Shown here piece by piece: positions 3,813 to 56,030 of a stretch of DNA of 56,030 bases. Within the stretch, counting starts at the first letter, position 1, and every line of letters starts with the position of its first letter. Source of the stretch: Bacteroidaceae bacterium (GTDB taxonomy: Bacteria; Bacteroidota; Bacteroidia; Bacteroidales; Bacteroidaceae); assembly GCA_017541025.1 (NCBI GenBank), contig JAFXZY010000059.1, forward strand, positions 1-56,030, written 5' to 3'. Under the pieces are notes generated by a model, which saw nothing but the letters and a program-made list of their open reading frames with translations, did not search any database and had not been told where the DNA came from. The position numbers and the translations under genes were made by a program.

Positions 3813-4844
3813 ATGAAGCCTCGATATCTTTTTCCAAGTGATTATATGGCCGACCCTGCTGGCCACGTGTTTAACGATAAGCTGTACATCTACCCCAGCC
3901 ACGACTGGGATGCCGGTGAGTGCTTCGACGACGACGGCGGACACTTTCAGATGAAAGACTACCATGTACTTTCGTTCGACGATGTAGAGAACGGGCCTGC
4001 AACAGACCACGGTGTGATTCTGGACGTAAGCCAAGTGCCCTGGGCGGAGAAACAGATGTGGGACAGCGATGTGGTAGAGAAGGACGGCAAGTACTACCTC
4101 GTCTTCTCGGCTAAGGCTTATGACGGTGTATTCAGATTAGGTGTTGCCATTGCCGACAAACCCGAGGGCCCCTTCATTCCCCAGGAGTTTCCCATCCGCG
4201 GCTCTTTCTCTATAGACCCTTGTATGTTCAAGGACGATGACGGACAGATATACTGCTACTTTGGCGGTCTCTGGGGCGGTCAATTGCAATGGTGGCGTTC
4301 CCTCTTCCATGGTTTTTCCACAATCCCCGGCAAATACGGAAACGACAATGGTCTAATAGACTTAGGGCCTGCAGCAGACCATAAGACACAGCTCTTCGCA
4401 AAGCCCGATGCCCCCGCTCTGCCAAGCGCCGTTGTCCGCATGAGTGATGATGTACTGCAGTTTGCTGAGGCACCCCGTGCTGTACTCATTCTGGATAAGG
4501 ACGGGCAGCCCATGAAAGCTGGCGACCAACATCGCTTCTTCGAAGCCAGTTGGATGCACAAGTACAAGGGTAAATACTACTTCAGCTACTCCACAGGCGA
4601 CAGTCATCTGCTCTGCTACGCTACAGGCGACAATCCTTACGGCCCCTTCACTTATAAGGGTGTTATCCTGGAGCCGGTAGTGGGTTGGACTACCCATCAC
4701 AGCATAGTGGAGTTTAAGGGTCAGTGGTATCTGCTGTATCACGACTGTGTTCCCTCGAACGACATTACCCATCTGCGCTCCCTGAAGGTACAGCGCCTGT
4801 TCTATAACGAAGACGGCACCATACAAACCGTAATCAATGAATAA
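3813..4844 (+). CDS. GH43 beta-xylosidase / arabinofuranosidase
   Basis: This 343-residue five-bladed beta-propeller hydrolase carries the three GH43 acidic residues in good contexts. They are Asp14 (YMADPAGHVF, general base), Asp135 (SIDPCMFKDDDG, pKa modulator) and Glu244 (FFEASWMHK, general acid). No signal peptide is present, so it should act in the cytoplasm on oligosaccharides imported by the adjacent symporter. The best fit is the xylan-type branch of GH43 (xynB-like), but specificity for xylose or arabinose cannot be read from sequence. Its stop overlaps the next start in ATGAATAA (4837-4844), which indicates translational coupling to the alpha-glucuronidase. Confidence 0.92.
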   Translation: MKPRYLFPSDYMADPAGHVFNDKLYIYPSHDWDAGECFDDDGGHFQMKDYHVLSFDDVENGPATDHGVILDVSQVPWAEKQMWDSDVVEKDGKYYLVFSAKAYDGVFRLGVAIADKPEGPFIPQEFPIRGSFSIDPCMFKDDDGQIYCYFGGLWGGQLQWWRSLFHGFSTIPGKYGNDNGLIDLGPAADHKTQLFAKPDAPALPSAVVRMSDDVLQFAEAPRAVLILDKDGQPMKAGDQHRFFEASWMHKYKGKYYFSYSTGDSHLLCYATGDNPYGPFTYKGVILEPVVGWTTHHSIVEFKGQWYLLYHDCVPSNDITHLRSLKVQRLFYNEDGTIQTVINE

Positions 4845-6639
4845 ACTTGGGAGCATTATAATCCTTTTCGTCTTCTGCATGACTACAGCTAAGGCAGAAG
4901 ACGGAAGTCGTTTATGGCTGCGCAGTGAAATGCCAACAGACATTACGCTGAGCATAGATTCCACCATGCCTGACGATGACGGCTACCGCATCAGCGGTAA
5001 AACTATCACCGCACGCACCCAGATGGGACTTCTCTATGGTAAGTATGCCCTGCTGAGAGGCGAACAGGGAGAGTCGCACCCTTACTTCAAGTACCGTATC
5101 CTGAATCATTGGGACAACTTAGATGGAACCATAGAGAGAGGGTATGCCGGGGAAAGCATCTTTTGGAGCCTCACCCCCGCCCCCTCTCCCAGAGAGAGGG
5201 GAGATCACATTAACAAGTACGCAGAAGCTTGTGCTTCCGTCGGCATTAACGGAACGGTACTGAACAATGTGAATGCTTCGCCCAAGATGCTCACACCTAT
5301 TTATATAAATAAGGTGAAGGAGATTGCCGACATTCTGAGGCCATGGGGCATTCGGGTTTATCTGTCTGTAAACTTCGGGTCGCCCAAGGCATTAGGCGAA
5401 GTTAAGACTGCCGACCCCCTGAATCCACAGGTTAGAAAGTGGTGGAAGAAAAAAACCAGAGAAATATACAAGCTAATTCCCGACTTTGGCGGCTTCTTAG
5501 TAAAGGCTAACAGCGAGGGACAGCCAGGCCCGTTCGACTATGGTCGGACCCACGCCGATGGTGCCAATATGCTGGCCGATGCGCTGAAACCCTACGGCGG
5601 AATTGTGATGTGGCGTTCCTTTGTATATGGAGCCAAGCATCAAGGTGAAGACCGTGTAAAACAGGCTGTATCTGAGTTTGCCGAGCTAGATGGTCAGTTC
5701 CGCGATAATGTTATCCTGCAATCCAAGAACGGCCCCCTGGACTTCCAACCTCGTGAGCCCTACGCTCCTATCTTTGACCAAATGAAGAAAACGCCACAGA
5801 TGGCTGAGTTGCAGATAACACAGGAATACCTGGGACAGAGCAAGCACTTAGTTTATCTGGCTCCCATGTGGGAAGAATTCTTTGGCTACGTAGAACCAAG
5901 CAGACTGGTCGGCATAGCAGGTGTAGCCAACATAGGGTTAGACACCAACTGGTGCGGGCACCACTTCTCGCAAGCTAACTGGTATGCCTTTGGCCGACTG
6001 GCGTGGGACCCTACCCTAACCTCAGAACAGATAGCAAAGGAATGGCTCAGCCAAACCTTCGGGAATGAAAAGGGAAAAATGAAAAATGAGGAAATTTCTA
6101 CTGTAATCACATCCCTGCTCTTGCGAAGCCACGAAGCTTGTGTGAATTACATGATGCCCTTGGGACTGCACCACATCTTTAAGTTCGACCACCACATGGG
6201 ACCTGAGCCCGACGGATTCAAGGCTGACTACCCCATTGAATGGTGTCCAGTATATTACCATCGTGCCAACAAGGACAGCATAGGTGTGGATCGCAGCAGC
6301 ACTGGCACCAACGCCACCGGTCAGTATCGAGAACCCTACCGCTCGCTATATGACAACATAAAAACCTGCCCAGAGGAATATCTGCTTTGGTTTCACCGTG
6401 TGCCCTGGACGTACCGTATGGAGAGCGGCCTCACCCTGTGGGATGAAATACAGAGACACTATAACAGAGGCGTGGCTGAGGTGGACGACTTTGCCTACAT
6501 CTGGCAGCAAACAAAGCCCTGTATAGATGAGCAGCGTTGGCAAGAGGTGGATGAATGTCTCCGCTTCCAGCAAAAGGATGCTCGCCTCTGGCGTGACACC
6601 TGCCTGAAGTATTTTGGTTCTTTTCTCAGTTCGGAATAA
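4837..6639 (+). CDS. aguA: GH67 alpha-glucuronidase
   Basis: This 600-residue exported enzyme should remove 4-O-methyl-glucuronic acid from the non-reducing end of xylo-oligosaccharides. Residues 1-20 form a signal peptide. The family signature HWDNLDGTIERGYAG is at 91-105. Candidate catalytic residues are Glu228 (KANSEGQPGPFDYGR, acid), Asp302 (NGPLDFQPREP) and Glu330 (QITQEYLGQSK), with spacing close to that of characterised GH67 enzymes. Residues 111-123 (SLTPAPSPRERGD) come from a GC-rich palindromic repeat inserted in frame where relatives have a short W..LP-like loop. Residues about 409-418 (NEKGKMKNEE) look like a second simple-sequence insertion. The last codons run into a promoter module. 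Periplasmic location contrasts with the cytoplasmic GH43. Confidence 0.93.
   Translation: MNKLGSIIILFVFCMTTAKAEDGSRLWLRSEMPTDITLSIDSTMPDDDGYRISGKTITARTQMGLLYGKYALLRGEQGESHPYFKYRILNHWDNLDGTIERGYAGESIFWSLTPAPSPRERGDHINKYAEACASVGINGTVLNNVNASPKMLTPIYINKVKEIADILRPWGIRVYLSVNFGSPKALGEVKTADPLNPQVRKWWKKKTREIYKLIPDFGGFLVKANSEGQPGPFDYGRTHADGANMLADALKPYGGIVMWRSFVYGAKHQGEDRVKQAVSEFAELDGQFRDNVILQSKNGPLDFQPREPYAPIFDQMKKTPQMAELQITQEYLGQSKHLVYLAPMWEEFFGYVEPSRLVGIAGVANIGLDTNWCGHHFSQANWYAFGRLAWDPTLTSEQIAKEWLSQTFGNEKGKMKNEEISTVITSLLLRSHEACVNYMMPLGLHHIFKFDHHMGPEPDGFKADYPIEWCPVYYHRANKDSIGVDRSSTGTNATGQYREPYRSLYDNIKTCPEEYLLWFHRVPWTYRMESGLTLWDEIQRHYNRGVAEVDDFAYIWQQTKPCIDEQRWQEVDECLRFQQKDARLWRDTCLKYFGSFLSSE
5169..5204 (+). 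repeat. GC-rich palindromic element inside GH67
   Basis: The run of CCTCACCCCCGCCCCC followed by TCTCCCAGAGAGAGGGGAG forms a strong hairpin (CTCTCCC / GAGAGGGG) and encodes residues 111-123 in frame. Its wording matches the start of the intergenic element at 54326, and it is related to the shorter elements in the ABC cluster. Confidence 0.75.
6064..6095 (+). repeat. AATGAAAAATGA simple sequence inside GH67
   Basis: AATGAAAAGGGAAAAATGAA and the following bases resemble the AATGAAAAATG arrays common between Bacteroidetes genes. The stretch encodes EKGKMKNEE, about six residues longer than I expect for GH67 at this point. The claim rests on recalled family length and has not been aligned. Confidence 0.4.
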
Positions 6640-52959: not shown

Positions 52960-54321
52960 ATGAATAATATACCAAAACTAACTTCAAATCTCTCCCTCCT
53001 CGGGGGGAGCTGGAGGGGGGCTTCTGTATGGCTCTTCCTGGAACTGATAGTAATCAGCGTTGTGGCTTGGGTAGTTATCGACCCTGCTGTGGTGAACCTC
53101 TACTACCGCAGTTTGCCAATGATGTACGATGCAGACCAACTGCTCTATGCCAAAACGAAACCGAAGACAGATGCCGACGGATTTGGCGATAATATGACTG
53201 AGGAACGCCAAATGCAGTTCCTCCGCCAGTTGGAATCGATGGAGGGCGTAGAGAGTGCATATATTTACAATCGAAACGGTACGGTAATTGGCGAAAACAG
53301 TCCATCCTACCACACGGTCAGCAACGAGAAGGATACCATCTGGATAACAGAGGTTTGCTTTGCGAGTAATGCCAGATTCTTTGAAACCTACGGCTTACGG
53401 CCAATGCCTGGAAGTCCGTCGGCAGAGGAACTCTCTAAGATAATGAAACAAGGTAAGCCTGACAAGGCCGTTCTGACCCGAAAAGCTGCCCTTACACTCT
53501 TTGGTACGGACGATGTGGTAGGCCGCCACTTCCAACATTATGGTCAACCAGATACAGGGCGTCCAATGGAGTGGATCGACGCTACCGTCATGGGCGTCGT
53601 GGAAGACTTCCGCCTGTCCTTAGCCCGCGACATACGCACCATCATCTTCTTCCCATACACTAACTTCCTTACCGATGCGGACGTCGTCATCCGACTGAAG
53701 AAGGGCGTCCACCCAGGACGCTTCGTCGAGGAGCACGGACAAGAGCTCATAGCAAAGGGTGATACGGAGTTCTGCCGCATCAGCAAACTGATGACCTTCA
53801 AGGATTACATCAAACAATCAGAACTGAGGGAAGGGAATACGCAGGAGGTAAACCGCAGCCTGATGCTGGCACTTTTCTTCCTGGTAAACCTCAGCCTCGC
53901 CATCATCGGCACCGTCTGGCTGCAAGCCAAACGCAGGACCGAAGAATGTGGTGTGCGCCGAGCCTTCGGAGCTACCCGTCCGCGTCTGTTGCTGGGTTTC
54001 CTCTCCGAAGGGGCGCTTATGGCAACCGTTGCTGTCATTATCGGCTGCATCATCTACTTGAACTACGCCTACAGCGGCTTGGAGTATAACGAAGGGATAA
54101 ATATAACTCACTTCGGATTGGAGCATTTCGAGACCATGTACAATACCAGCCATTACGAGAATCCTGCCGACCAGACTTGGCCCGACCACTTCTGGCCGCA
54201 CTTCCTCATCGTGTCCGGCATCGTGTACCTTATTATATTATGTACTGTCTTGATAGGAACAGCCATACCGGCAATAAAGATAATTAATACAAGAATAACA
54301 GAATCGTTAAGAGAAGAGTAA
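52960..54321 (+). CDS. ABC transporter permease 2 (MacB/FtsX type)
   Basis: This 453-residue permease has the same plan: N-terminal helix (VWLFLELIVISVVAWVVI), periplasmic domain, three helices, with RRTEECGVRRAFGATRPRLL in the FtsX region. Residues about 11-21 (LSLLGGSWRGA) are encoded by a GC-rich palindromic repeat fused in frame just before the first helix, where relatives have a short polar N-terminus. The repeat appears tolerated because it lies on the cytoplasmic side of the membrane. Confidence 0.9.
   Translation: MNNIPKLTSNLSLLGGSWRGASVWLFLELIVISVVAWVVIDPAVVNLYYRSLPMMYDADQLLYAKTKPKTDADGFGDNMTEERQMQFLRQLESMEGVESAYIYNRNGTVIGENSPSYHTVSNEKDTIWITEVCFASNARFFETYGLRPMPGSPSAEELSKIMKQGKPDKAVLTRKAALTLFGTDDVVGRHFQHYGQPDTGRPMEWIDATVMGVVEDFRLSLARDIRTIIFFPYTNFLTDADVVIRLKKGVHPGRFVEEHGQELIAKGDTEFCRISKLMTFKDYIKQSELREGNTQEVNRSLMLALFFLVNLSLAIIGTVWLQAKRRTEECGVRRAFGATRPRLLLGFLSEGALMATVAVIIGCIIYLNYAYSGLEYNEGINITHFGLEHFETMYNTSHYENPADQTWPDHFWPHFLIVSGIVYLIILCTVLIGTAIPAIKIINTRITESLREE
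52990..53023 (+). repeat. Palindromic element in permease 2
   Basis: CTCCCTCCTCGGGGGGAG, then CTGGAGGGGGGCTT: the same two-part layout (self-complementary core, then a GGAGGGGGC tail) as the elements at 54666, 55367 and 55470. It is coding. Confidence 0.8.
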
Positions 54322-54325
54322 CAGA

Positions 54326-54440
54326 AGCCTCACCCCTAACCCGAACACCGTCGAGAGTGGGAACTCTCTCCCCTCTGTGGGGCCGCAGCCACATTTAGTG
54401 GCTACTCTAAAGACCCCATTCGCTCCGAGGAGAGGGGAAC
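54326..54440. repeat. Long GC-rich stem-loop element between permease 2 and the ATPase
   Basis: It begins with CCTCACCCCTAACCCG, like the element in GH67. It contains a nested hairpin GCAGCCAC-ATTTA-GTGGCTAC (54385-54405) flanked by GTGGGG and ACCCCAT arms, and ends GAGGAGAGGGGAAC, which pairs with CTCTCCCCTC near 54366. It has no coding frame. It may attenuate transcription within the operon. Confidence 0.7.
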
Positions 54441-54601
54441 TAGTGGCCAAACGATAAACGATAAACGAAATACGGATTCGCTAACCGCTAAACGTTATGT
54501 GCGTGTAAAACCATCGTCTTTAACTTCTCAGGCCGAAAGGCCGATAACTTCTCTAACTTCTTTAACTTCTAATCAAAGAAATTATAAACCAATAAAACAA
54601 T
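54441..54601. other. Non-coding gap before the ABC ATPase
   Basis: No gene is seen. The stretch holds short arrays (AAACGAT units near 54453, TTAACTTCT units near 54519-54570) and a small hairpin GGCC-GAAA-GGCC (54531-54542) with a GNRA loop. No consensus -33/-7 promoter was found, so the ATPase is probably read from the sigma-54 promoter. Confidence 0.6.
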
Positions 54602-55366
54602 ATGATTATGAACACCGAACAGAATGTAAACAAGCAGAATCAACCAAGTCTAACAACATCTGAGTTCCTCCCCCAAGGGGGAGGTCAGGAGGGGGCCGTA
54701 ATTAGGCTCACTGGCATTAACAAAATCTATCGTACTGACGAAGTGGAGACACAAGCTTTGGAGAATGTGAACATCGAAGTAAAGAAGGGCGAGTTCCTGA
54801 GCATCATGGGACCTTCCGGCTGTGGCAAATCTACGCTGCTGAACATCATGGGCCTGCTTGACGAACCTACAAGCGGCACCATAGAACTGTGCGGAACCGT
54901 CATCGACCCCAAGCTGCCGGACAACAAACTCGCTGAGCTGAGGAACAAGACGCTGGGCTTCGTGTTCCAAAGCTTCCACCTCATCAGTACACTCAACGTA
55001 TTGGACAACGTGCAGATTCCCCTTATCTATCGTGGTGTACGCAGCGGTGAGCGTCTGCGCTTGGCGAAGGAGGTGATAGAGCGTGTAGGCCTCTCGCATC
55101 GCATGAAGCACCGTCCCTCGCAGCTCTCAGGCGGTCAGTGTCAGCGTGTCGCCATCGCCCGCGCCATCATCGGCAACCCCGAGATACTCCTTGCCGACGA
55201 GCCGACAGGTAACCTCGACTCGAAGATGGGTGCCGAGATTATGGAACTGCTGCACAAGCTGAACCGAGAGGACGGCCGCACCATCGTGATGGTAACGCAC
55301 AACGAACAGCAGGCCGCACAGACCGACAGAATTATCAAGTTCCTGGACGGAAGACAAGTTCAGTAG
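54602..55366 (+). CDS. ABC ATPase of the LolD/MacB type
   Basis: This is a 254-residue ATPase. Walker A is GPSGCGKST, the Q-loop is VFQSFHL, the signature is LSGGQCQR, Walker B is ILLADEPTGNLD, and the H-loop is VTHN. The core begins VIRLTGINKIYRTDEVETQA, which is where relatives usually start. The preceding about 35 residues are an extra N-terminus that includes FLPQGGGQEG encoded by a palindromic element. No start codon is available closer to the core, so the extension is probably translated. It should energise the three permeases around it. Confidence 0.93.
   Translation: MIMNTEQNVNKQNQPSLTTSEFLPQGGGQEGAVIRLTGINKIYRTDEVETQALENVNIEVKKGEFLSIMGPSGCGKSTLLNIMGLLDEPTSGTIELCGTVIDPKLPDNKLAELRNKTLGFVFQSFHLISTLNVLDNVQIPLIYRGVRSGERLRLAKEVIERVGLSHRMKHRPSQLSGGQCQRVAIARAIIGNPEILLADEPTGNLDSKMGAEIMELLHKLNREDGRTIVMVTHNEQQAAQTDRIIKFLDGRQVQ
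54666..54697 (+). repeat. Palindromic element in the ABC ATPase
   Basis: CCTCCCCCAAGGGGGAGG core followed by TCAGGAGGGGGC. It is read in frame as LPQGGGQEGA-type residues in the N-terminal extension. Confidence 0.85.
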
Positions 55367-55399
55367 CCCCCTCCCCGCTCCCCCTTTGGGGGAGTGCCT
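55367..55399 (-). repeat. Palindromic element after the ATPase stop
   Basis: Reverse orientation of the same element (read on the minus strand: CACTCCCCCAAAGGGGGAG, then CGGGGAGGGGGC). It is the only intergenic short copy here and begins directly after the stop codon at 55364-55366. Confidence 0.85.
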
Positions 55400-55421
55400 C
55401 AATCCCATTAAAAAATAAAAT

Positions 55422-56030
55422 ATGAATAGGTTATTTACAAAACTGAGTAGCTTCTTCTCCCTTACTTTTCACTCCCCCAAAGGGGGAGCCGGAGGGGGCT
55501 TTGCTCACGCCTTCGCCCTCATTCGTGCCGACAAGCTGTTCTCCACCATCTATATCGCGGGCACAGCTGTTGCCATCGCCTCGGCTATGGTGGTCGCCAT
55601 CGTGCTGAACATCATGCTGGCGGACATTGAGCCGGAAGTGAACCGCAGCCGGACGCTCTACGGTCTGAACCGCTTCTACAAGGACTCGTGGGGTGACGGG
55701 CGGCAGCGAATCCAGCACTGTTCTGTCGAGGCCATCGACTCCTGCTTCCGGCAGATGAAGTGTGTGGAGCTCGTTGCTGCAGTTATCCCGCCCCACGAGC
55801 CCGTGGCACAGGGCTTCGACGCTACGGACGAAGAGAAGAAGCACACCATGAAAGAGGTCGCCATCATGGCAGGCAATCCCGATATGTTCCGCCTCTACGA
55901 ATACCAGTTTCTGAGTGGGCGTCCCTTCTCCGAAAAGGAGTTCCAAGACGGCGAGTACGTCTGCGTCATCACCGAGCGAGTGGCCCGGAATATCGGCAGT
56001 GAGAGCATCCTGCTCAACGGCTACAAGTAT
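55422..56030 (+). CDS. ABC transporter permease 3, cut by the window end
   Basis: This frame starts at ATG 55422 and stays open for 203 codons to the last base. It has the family N-terminus FALIRADKLFSTIYIAGTAV then AIASAMVVAIVLNIML and IEPEVNRSRTLYGLN, close in wording to permease 1. Residues about 17-27 (HSPKGGAGGGF) are encoded by another copy of the palindromic element, placed before the first membrane helix as in permease 2. The periplasmic domain is under way at the window end; the FtsX part lies outside. Confidence 0.9.
   Translation, partial: MNRLFTKLSSFFSLTFHSPKGGAGGGFAHAFALIRADKLFSTIYIAGTAVAIASAMVVAIVLNIMLADIEPEVNRSRTLYGLNRFYKDSWGDGRQRIQHCSVEAIDSCFRQMKCVELVAAVIPPHEPVAQGFDATDEEKKHTMKEVAIMAGNPDMFRLYEYQFLSGRPFSEKEFQDGEYVCVITERVARNIGSESILLNGYKY
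55470..55501 (+). repeat. Palindromic element in permease 3
   Basis: CACTCCCCCAAAGGGGGAG then CCGGAGGGGGCT. Its reverse complement is nearly identical to the copy at 55367-55399, only 70 bases away, so the two form an inverted pair flanking the permease 3 start codon. Confidence 0.85.

Follow-up and report, generated by a model that had tools for sequence, protein, structure and literature searches.

How do three consecutive transporter genes come to carry the same short palindrome within their N-terminal coding regions, each time in frame? The question is raised by the end of a 56,030-nucleotide stretch of DNA from a Bacteroidaceae bacterium (contig JAFXZY010000059.1, here C87), which in its full length we call the window. 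The window ends where the contig ends, and it is part of a metagenome-assembled genome of 3.28 Mb that is 84% complete, referred to below as the own genome. A sequence-only reading had seen four palindromes there, three of them translated, and had likened them to repetitive extragenic palindromes (REP) and to Rickettsia palindromic elements (RPE) occurring in coding and non-coding DNA. All four are found in the sequence, in and between three consecutive genes of ATP-binding cassette (ABC) transporters (Table 1). We consider it very probable that they are members of a selfish family of palindromic repeats, of the same type as REP and REP doublets forming hairpins (REPIN), and that this family behaves like the palindromic elements of Rickettsia.

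All four copies, which we call A-type, possess a G-rich tail, GGAGGGGGC, which in the third copy reads GGGGAGGGGGC. None of the three coding copies is followed by an in-frame ATG, GTG or TTG ahead of the first strand or membrane segment that is conserved in the protein, so that these copies, judged by their reading frames, would have to be translated; the observation that they precede the conserved part of the proteins holds. REPs at N-termini are a known reason for caution about wrong start codons, as described in PMC3733652, and non-coding repeats could appear coded through such starts or through assembly errors. We give this explanation hardly any credence, as it is opposed not only by the conserved segments of the window genes but also by copies in the interior and at the C-terminus of genes, which are common, and by other assemblies, which show the same picture.

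The unit comprises about 29 bases: two complementary arms, the first of them C-rich, are separated by a loop of 2-4 bases, and a G-rich tail is attached on one side only. Among 81 copies chosen by their GGGGGC end the core is usually preceded by CA and the tail followed by T-rich bases, and none of the 81 has a GTAG or CGTC tag at its foot. The consensus unit contains no stop codon in any of the six frames, and an in-frame copy would therefore simply be translated, one unit giving about 9-12 residues and a dimer about 26-38.

A lack of further copies in the genome had been named in advance as a result that would speak against a repeat family. There are 40 places in the own genome with the exact core, CTCCCCCNNNGGGGGAG, and none with the control read backwards, so the frequency of the core is not a matter of chance. 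If the pattern is loosened to core plus tail, 76 matches are obtained in the own genome and 28 in its G-rich control; because of these 28 the looser count is the weaker of the two, and that of the exact core is to be preferred. A related C-type (GAGGGG..GGGGTGAGG) was counted 46 times in the own genome and once in the control. Within the genus 67 of 139 genomes contain the core, the number of places ranging from 0 to 109 per genome; the control pattern matches once in each of three genomes. Among 49 genomes of the genus 14 have a stricter full pattern, and among 32 genomes from other families of the order none has it. The set of other genomes with this strict pattern comprises at least 117 loci, 80 of them listed; among the matches listed the hosts are mostly Bacteroidaceae, Prevotellaceae or Bacteroidales assemblies from ruminant guts, and hits also occur in Mucilaginibacter pineti and a Flavipsychrobacter assembly.

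To describe the placement of the units we used 366 kb (365,705 bases) of the own genome in stretches chosen around A-type matches, in which units were found by regular expression and genes by simple home-made calls (83% coding). There are 108 units in these stretches, two of which overlap another. While REPs are expected to be mainly extragenic, 64 of the 108 lie inside gene calls of these largely coding stretches: 38 in the gene interior, 11 in the first 40 codons and 15 in the last 25. Of the remainder, 19 lie at most 12 nt after a stop codon, eight at most 60 nt before a start, and 17 are found elsewhere. The N-terminal position noted by the sequence-only reading is thus correct for the three window genes and too narrow for the element, which also occupies C-termini, stop codons and the interior of genes. 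Three genes of the own genome (C58:32938-34587, C80:13355-16204 and C83:62316-63680) have elements within what by eye appear to be signal peptides, and the frame used at several N-termini reads SPKGGAGRG ahead of a hydrophobic stretch.

At the borders of genes the units have a polarity. The tail points into the gene in all 11 N-terminal units, in 13 of the 15 C-terminal ones (the two exceptions being the overlapping units), in 18 of 19 after a stop codon and in five of eight before a start, and the interior copies are mixed (24 on the same strand as the gene, 14 on the opposite one). The corresponding values for the 228 units of the 117-locus set are 17 of 20, 12 of 12, 26 of 26 and 13 of 15, with 77 to 47 interior units by strand and 31 units elsewhere. 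This polarity may be the mark that a tail-out unit leaves at gene borders, one half of it having often decayed.

The window operon was compared with six relatives of the same genus. For the first permease, the orthologues in G016, G002 and G003 as well as a paralogue in G045 have no element, the G045 orthologue has a similar copy, and G027 and G013 have other variants. The ATPase is without an element in G027, G045 and G002 and contains other families in G003 and G013, G016 being excluded because its contig ends before the gene. For the second permease there is no element in G027 and G013, G045 again has a similar copy, as in the first permease, and G002 and G003 have other variants. The different variants and families at the same place are in frame. 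In the G003 orthologue of this third gene (L068 9190-9520) the element of another family is tandemly duplicated, likewise in frame. Orthologues from distant genera with the same residues at these sites, which the sequence-only reading had considered as a point against itself, did not appear.

Such inserts are also found in core enzymes. The glutamate synthase gene gltB of the own genome contains seven element-derived inserts when compared with relatives of the genus that are 74-89% identical. At these seven sites G015 has the same type three times, a different filling twice and none twice; G005 has no insert at any of the five sites covered, and in G016 other palindromes occupy several of the same loops. 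The gene is under purifying selection (proportion of synonymous differences, pS, 0.684 and of nonsynonymous differences, pN, 0.083 against G015, with synonymous sites near saturation). CarAB has two inserts. In the linker between CarA and CarB the own genome has an A-type dimer, G015 and G029 have the dimer of another family, and G016 has a third family; in G008 and G010 nothing can be recognised there. The G016 family gives six hits in 140 kb; its inserts in gltB and carAB account for four of them, which leaves only two further copies. A fusion of carA and carB caused by REPIN insertion was ruled out, as relatives free of the element also have the fused frame. In G005 and G018 (L263, L266) the linker holds AT-rich inverted repeats, GTTGACAAG / CTTGTCAAC, in frame, and these are, as far as the reading frame tells, a second kind of translated repeat. 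When set against solved homologues, the inserts of QueA, GltB (alignment seen in part), CTP synthase and AsnB fall on gaps or unaligned residues; in asparagine synthetase B (AsnB) 49 residues have no counterpart in the E. coli protein. These comparisons show presence or absence at the level of species, residence in protein loops and the exchange of families at one site.

This exchange raises the question whether it is gene conversion, through recombination between short repeats or template switching, and not transposition that spreads the copies, with families overwriting each other at a site. We rate this as rather improbable. It would account for the different families at the same gltB and carAB sites in sister species, for the gltB locus of the own genome at which a C-type copy lies within the remnant of an A-type copy (G015 has the A-type alone there), and for the replacement of native residues; at many orthologous sites, however, there is no repeat that could be converted, and the unrelated families share little sequence.

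Neighbouring units tend to be arranged as inverted pairs with their tails pointing outwards. Among neighbours less than 250 bp apart in the own genome this applies to 25 of 29 (loose detector) or 16 of 19 (strict detector), and in the 117-locus set to 50 of 56, a count that includes loci not screened for overlap. Of the 16 strict pairs, five enclose a called start, six lie inside one gene (one of them representing two separate gltB inserts) and five are found elsewhere. When 15 pair interiors were compared for a standard REPIN interior that might supply the start codon, two compact dimers were alike over 26 bases at 88%. The start-enclosing pairs C28:25222-25344 and C83:113017-113144 have 16 identical bases including the ATG, AATATGGAACAGAAAA, which suggests that these two have a start region in common, and the remaining start-enclosing pairs are without a long interior match. 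Some junctions in the window and its relatives, seen by eye, pair different families, so the halves of a pair can differ in origin.

The third window gene has its start codon inside such a pair. The segment 55362-55502 folds at -75 kcal/mol (z -9.3), and one could see in it one long hairpin, a regulatory RNA structure selected at transporter 5' ends; an mRNA stem that tunes translation had been put forward before. The start-enclosing pairs of the own genome, and the 16 bases common to two of them, would be in line with this. Yet any inverted pair folds stably, and hence so does this one; a called start is enclosed in only 4 of the 50 tail-out pairs of the 117-locus set; and all three window genes have orthologues that do without the element, which leaves a role in translation control unsupported. 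Compared with shuffled sequence, the three coding copies themselves have no advantage in folding (z -0.45, -0.80 and -0.79), and the non-coding copy folds somewhat better (z -2.69). We therefore regard selection for a regulatory structure as very unlikely.

A further aspect is the enzyme that might mobilise the element. For REPs this would be a REP-associated tyrosine transposase (RAYT), and a gene of this kind had been suggested as a check on the genome. We searched for the Y1 transposase as PF01797 in 81 genomes, one of them the own genome, as well as in 24 members of the genus and in Mucilaginibacter pineti. At E 0.001 there is no match in the own genome at its 84% completeness, and none in the element-rich G045. 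Of 14 genomes with strict copies, three have a strong match (E below 1e-10); among chosen genomes, four of the 16 with at least six cores and four of the 8 with none have one. In 22 stretches of the genus around Y1 matches the A-type core never flanks the gene on both sides and occurs in two of them, once in each, at a distance of 186 nt in one and about 1.2 kb in the other. The palindromes that do surround the Y1 genes are, by pattern, of the CTGGCGGATT..AATCCGCCAG type in six stretches and of the CCCAGGGC..GCCCTGGG type in five, and four have another pair of their own; these patterns, validated on RAYT loci, have no match in the 365,705 bases examined of the own genome. RAYT-like genes of the genus with palindromes of the two named types are seen at L305-L310, L255 and L258. 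The element was not found at the five Y1 loci of Mucilaginibacter pineti. A parent element bracketed by distant tail-out copies was also considered and rejected: in the segments examined such copies enclose four different complete gene calls, none of them transposase-like by eye.

As there is no Y1 match in the own genome and the Y1 genes are flanked by other palindromes, the element is an orphan as far as tested, and RAYT as its mobiliser is to the same extent unsupported. It is possible that the enzyme lies in the missing 16% of the assembly, is divergent or acts in trans. A REP/REPIN of the classical kind would look much alike if a RAYT acting in trans mobilised it and this RAYT had been lost, had diverged too far for a match or lay outside the incomplete assembly: it would have a palindrome with its tail on one side, many copies and dimers with outward tails, and RAYTs do exist in the genus. 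Against it stand the missing matches in the own genome and in G045, the distribution of strong matches over genomes with and without the core, and the other palindromes at the Y1 genes. We judge it improbable.

Several points weigh against the reading as a selfish REP-like family. The searches made did not identify a mobilising gene. Against the lack of a link to RAYT it may be said that, if weak matches are counted, 8 of the 16 genomes with at least six cores have a RAYT; the weak matches are open reading frames of about 160-231 amino acids with palindromes of their own (L305-L310) and the look of divergent RAYTs, and because PF01797 matches them so weakly (E about 1e-5), such genes could be missed elsewhere. 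Some variant copies have a stop in one frame. The shares of units in gene calls rest on a simple home-made caller and on stretches chosen around A-type matches, and the comparisons of full and empty sites are between relatives of the genus and include no strain pair of one species. Several of the copies compared in gltB replaced native loop residues and were not cleanly inserted, and for Mfd and a DPP-like peptidase the alignments to solved homologues stop short of the element.

Palindromes in frame in protein genes are established for Rickettsia and Wolbachia (PMC2229807), and intragenic REPs are established as well, with the highest numbers in O. terrae and R. conorii according to PMC3733652. 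Like the elements of Rickettsia and Wolbachia, which PMC2229807 describes as regarded as selfish and as roughly neutral where tested, the element described here is found in frame in conserved protein genes and between genes, and it is absent from orthologues in the window operon, QueA, gltB, carAB, CTP synthase and AsnB. It differs from RPE in the host phylum, in length (105-146 bases for RPE in PMC2229807, a unit of about 29 and dimers of about 78-150 here, the likeness being one of description and not of compared sequences), and in that several families of one genus use the same protein loops in sister species. With the GTAG/CGTC REPs described in PMC3733652 it has in common a high copy number of a short palindrome with a one-sided tail, tail-out inverted dimers, and copies abutting stops and inside genes; for the CGTC REPs, too, that account gives no known dedicated transposase. 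Unlike these REPs, which are mostly intergenic there, it has no GTAG or CGTC tag and more than half of its units lie inside gene calls. A Bacteroidetes subclass of RAYT/TnpA-REP, 2.6, with atypical REPs is described in PMC6006769. It shares the phylum, and the genus has Y1 genes of similar size, which from size and motif we would guess to belong to that subclass; unlike in that setting, they are flanked by other palindromes and not by this element. We found no description of such elements in Bacteroidales in the literature searched, whose coverage leaves out subscription journals and preprints. Since in-frame palindromes are established elsewhere, this is a known kind of element which is new in its host group, is without the expected link to a transposase and reuses the same protein loops.

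A selfish family of this kind would work as follows. Two units with outward tails would form a REPIN-like dimer, copies would spread through some enzyme or recombination route, and they would persist where they do least harm, directly after stops, towards the ends of genes (the first 40 or the last 25 codons) and in variable protein loops; the movement step and the neutrality of the peptides are what we infer here. One may go further and suppose that a RAYT-independent process keeps several unrelated families moving within the genus, that permissive loops and ends of its proteins are a shared niche recolonised in sister species, and that the tail-into-gene polarity reveals the mode of insertion at gene borders. 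We put this forward tentatively, as a distinct possibility for which the chances are somewhat below even.

Besides the A-type copies the window contains two C-type elements (Table 1). The composite one consists of the parts GCCTCACCCC ... AGCCACATTTAGTGGCT ... GAGGGGAAC and occurs in five copies in the examined segments of the own genome together with the window; it is intergenic here, and a similar one lies in frame in asnB, at another locus of the own genome (L100 about 1455-1595). A comparison of the window with Rfam gave no match at gathering thresholds.

Table 1. Palindromic elements of the window and the genes that contain them.
Feature	Position	Strand	Remarks
A-type element after codon 10 of permease gene	52990..53021	+	in frame; LSLLGGSWRGA
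FtsX/MacB-type permease gene with element	52960..54321	+	Pfam PF12704, PF02687
Composite C-type element, 115 bp, between permease and ATPase genes	54327..54441	+	
A-type element, N-terminus of ABC ATPase	54667..54696	+	in frame; LPQGGGQEGA
ABC ATPase gene with element	54602..55366	+	Pfam PF00005
A-type element, left half of tail-out pair	55366..55394	-	outer base is last base of ATPase stop (TAG, 55364-55366)
A-type element, N-terminus of next permease, right half of tail-out pair	55472..55499	+	in frame; SPKGGAGGG
MacB-type permease gene with element, truncated by contig end	55422..56030	+	Pfam PF12704
C-type element inside GH67 alpha-glucuronidase gene (4837-6639), SLTPAPSPRERGD	5168..5203	-	in frame; Pfam PF07488, PF07477

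In-frame palindromes had been described as an oddity of Rickettsia, Wolbachia and a small number of others, and here they are met in Bacteroidales mostly of ruminant guts and in core enzymes. They represent a natural experiment in insertion tolerance, which marks those loops of glutamate synthase, CarAB and asparagine synthetase that accept a new peptide. With copy numbers between 0 and 109 in a single genus, it also becomes possible to test how repeats of this sort move.

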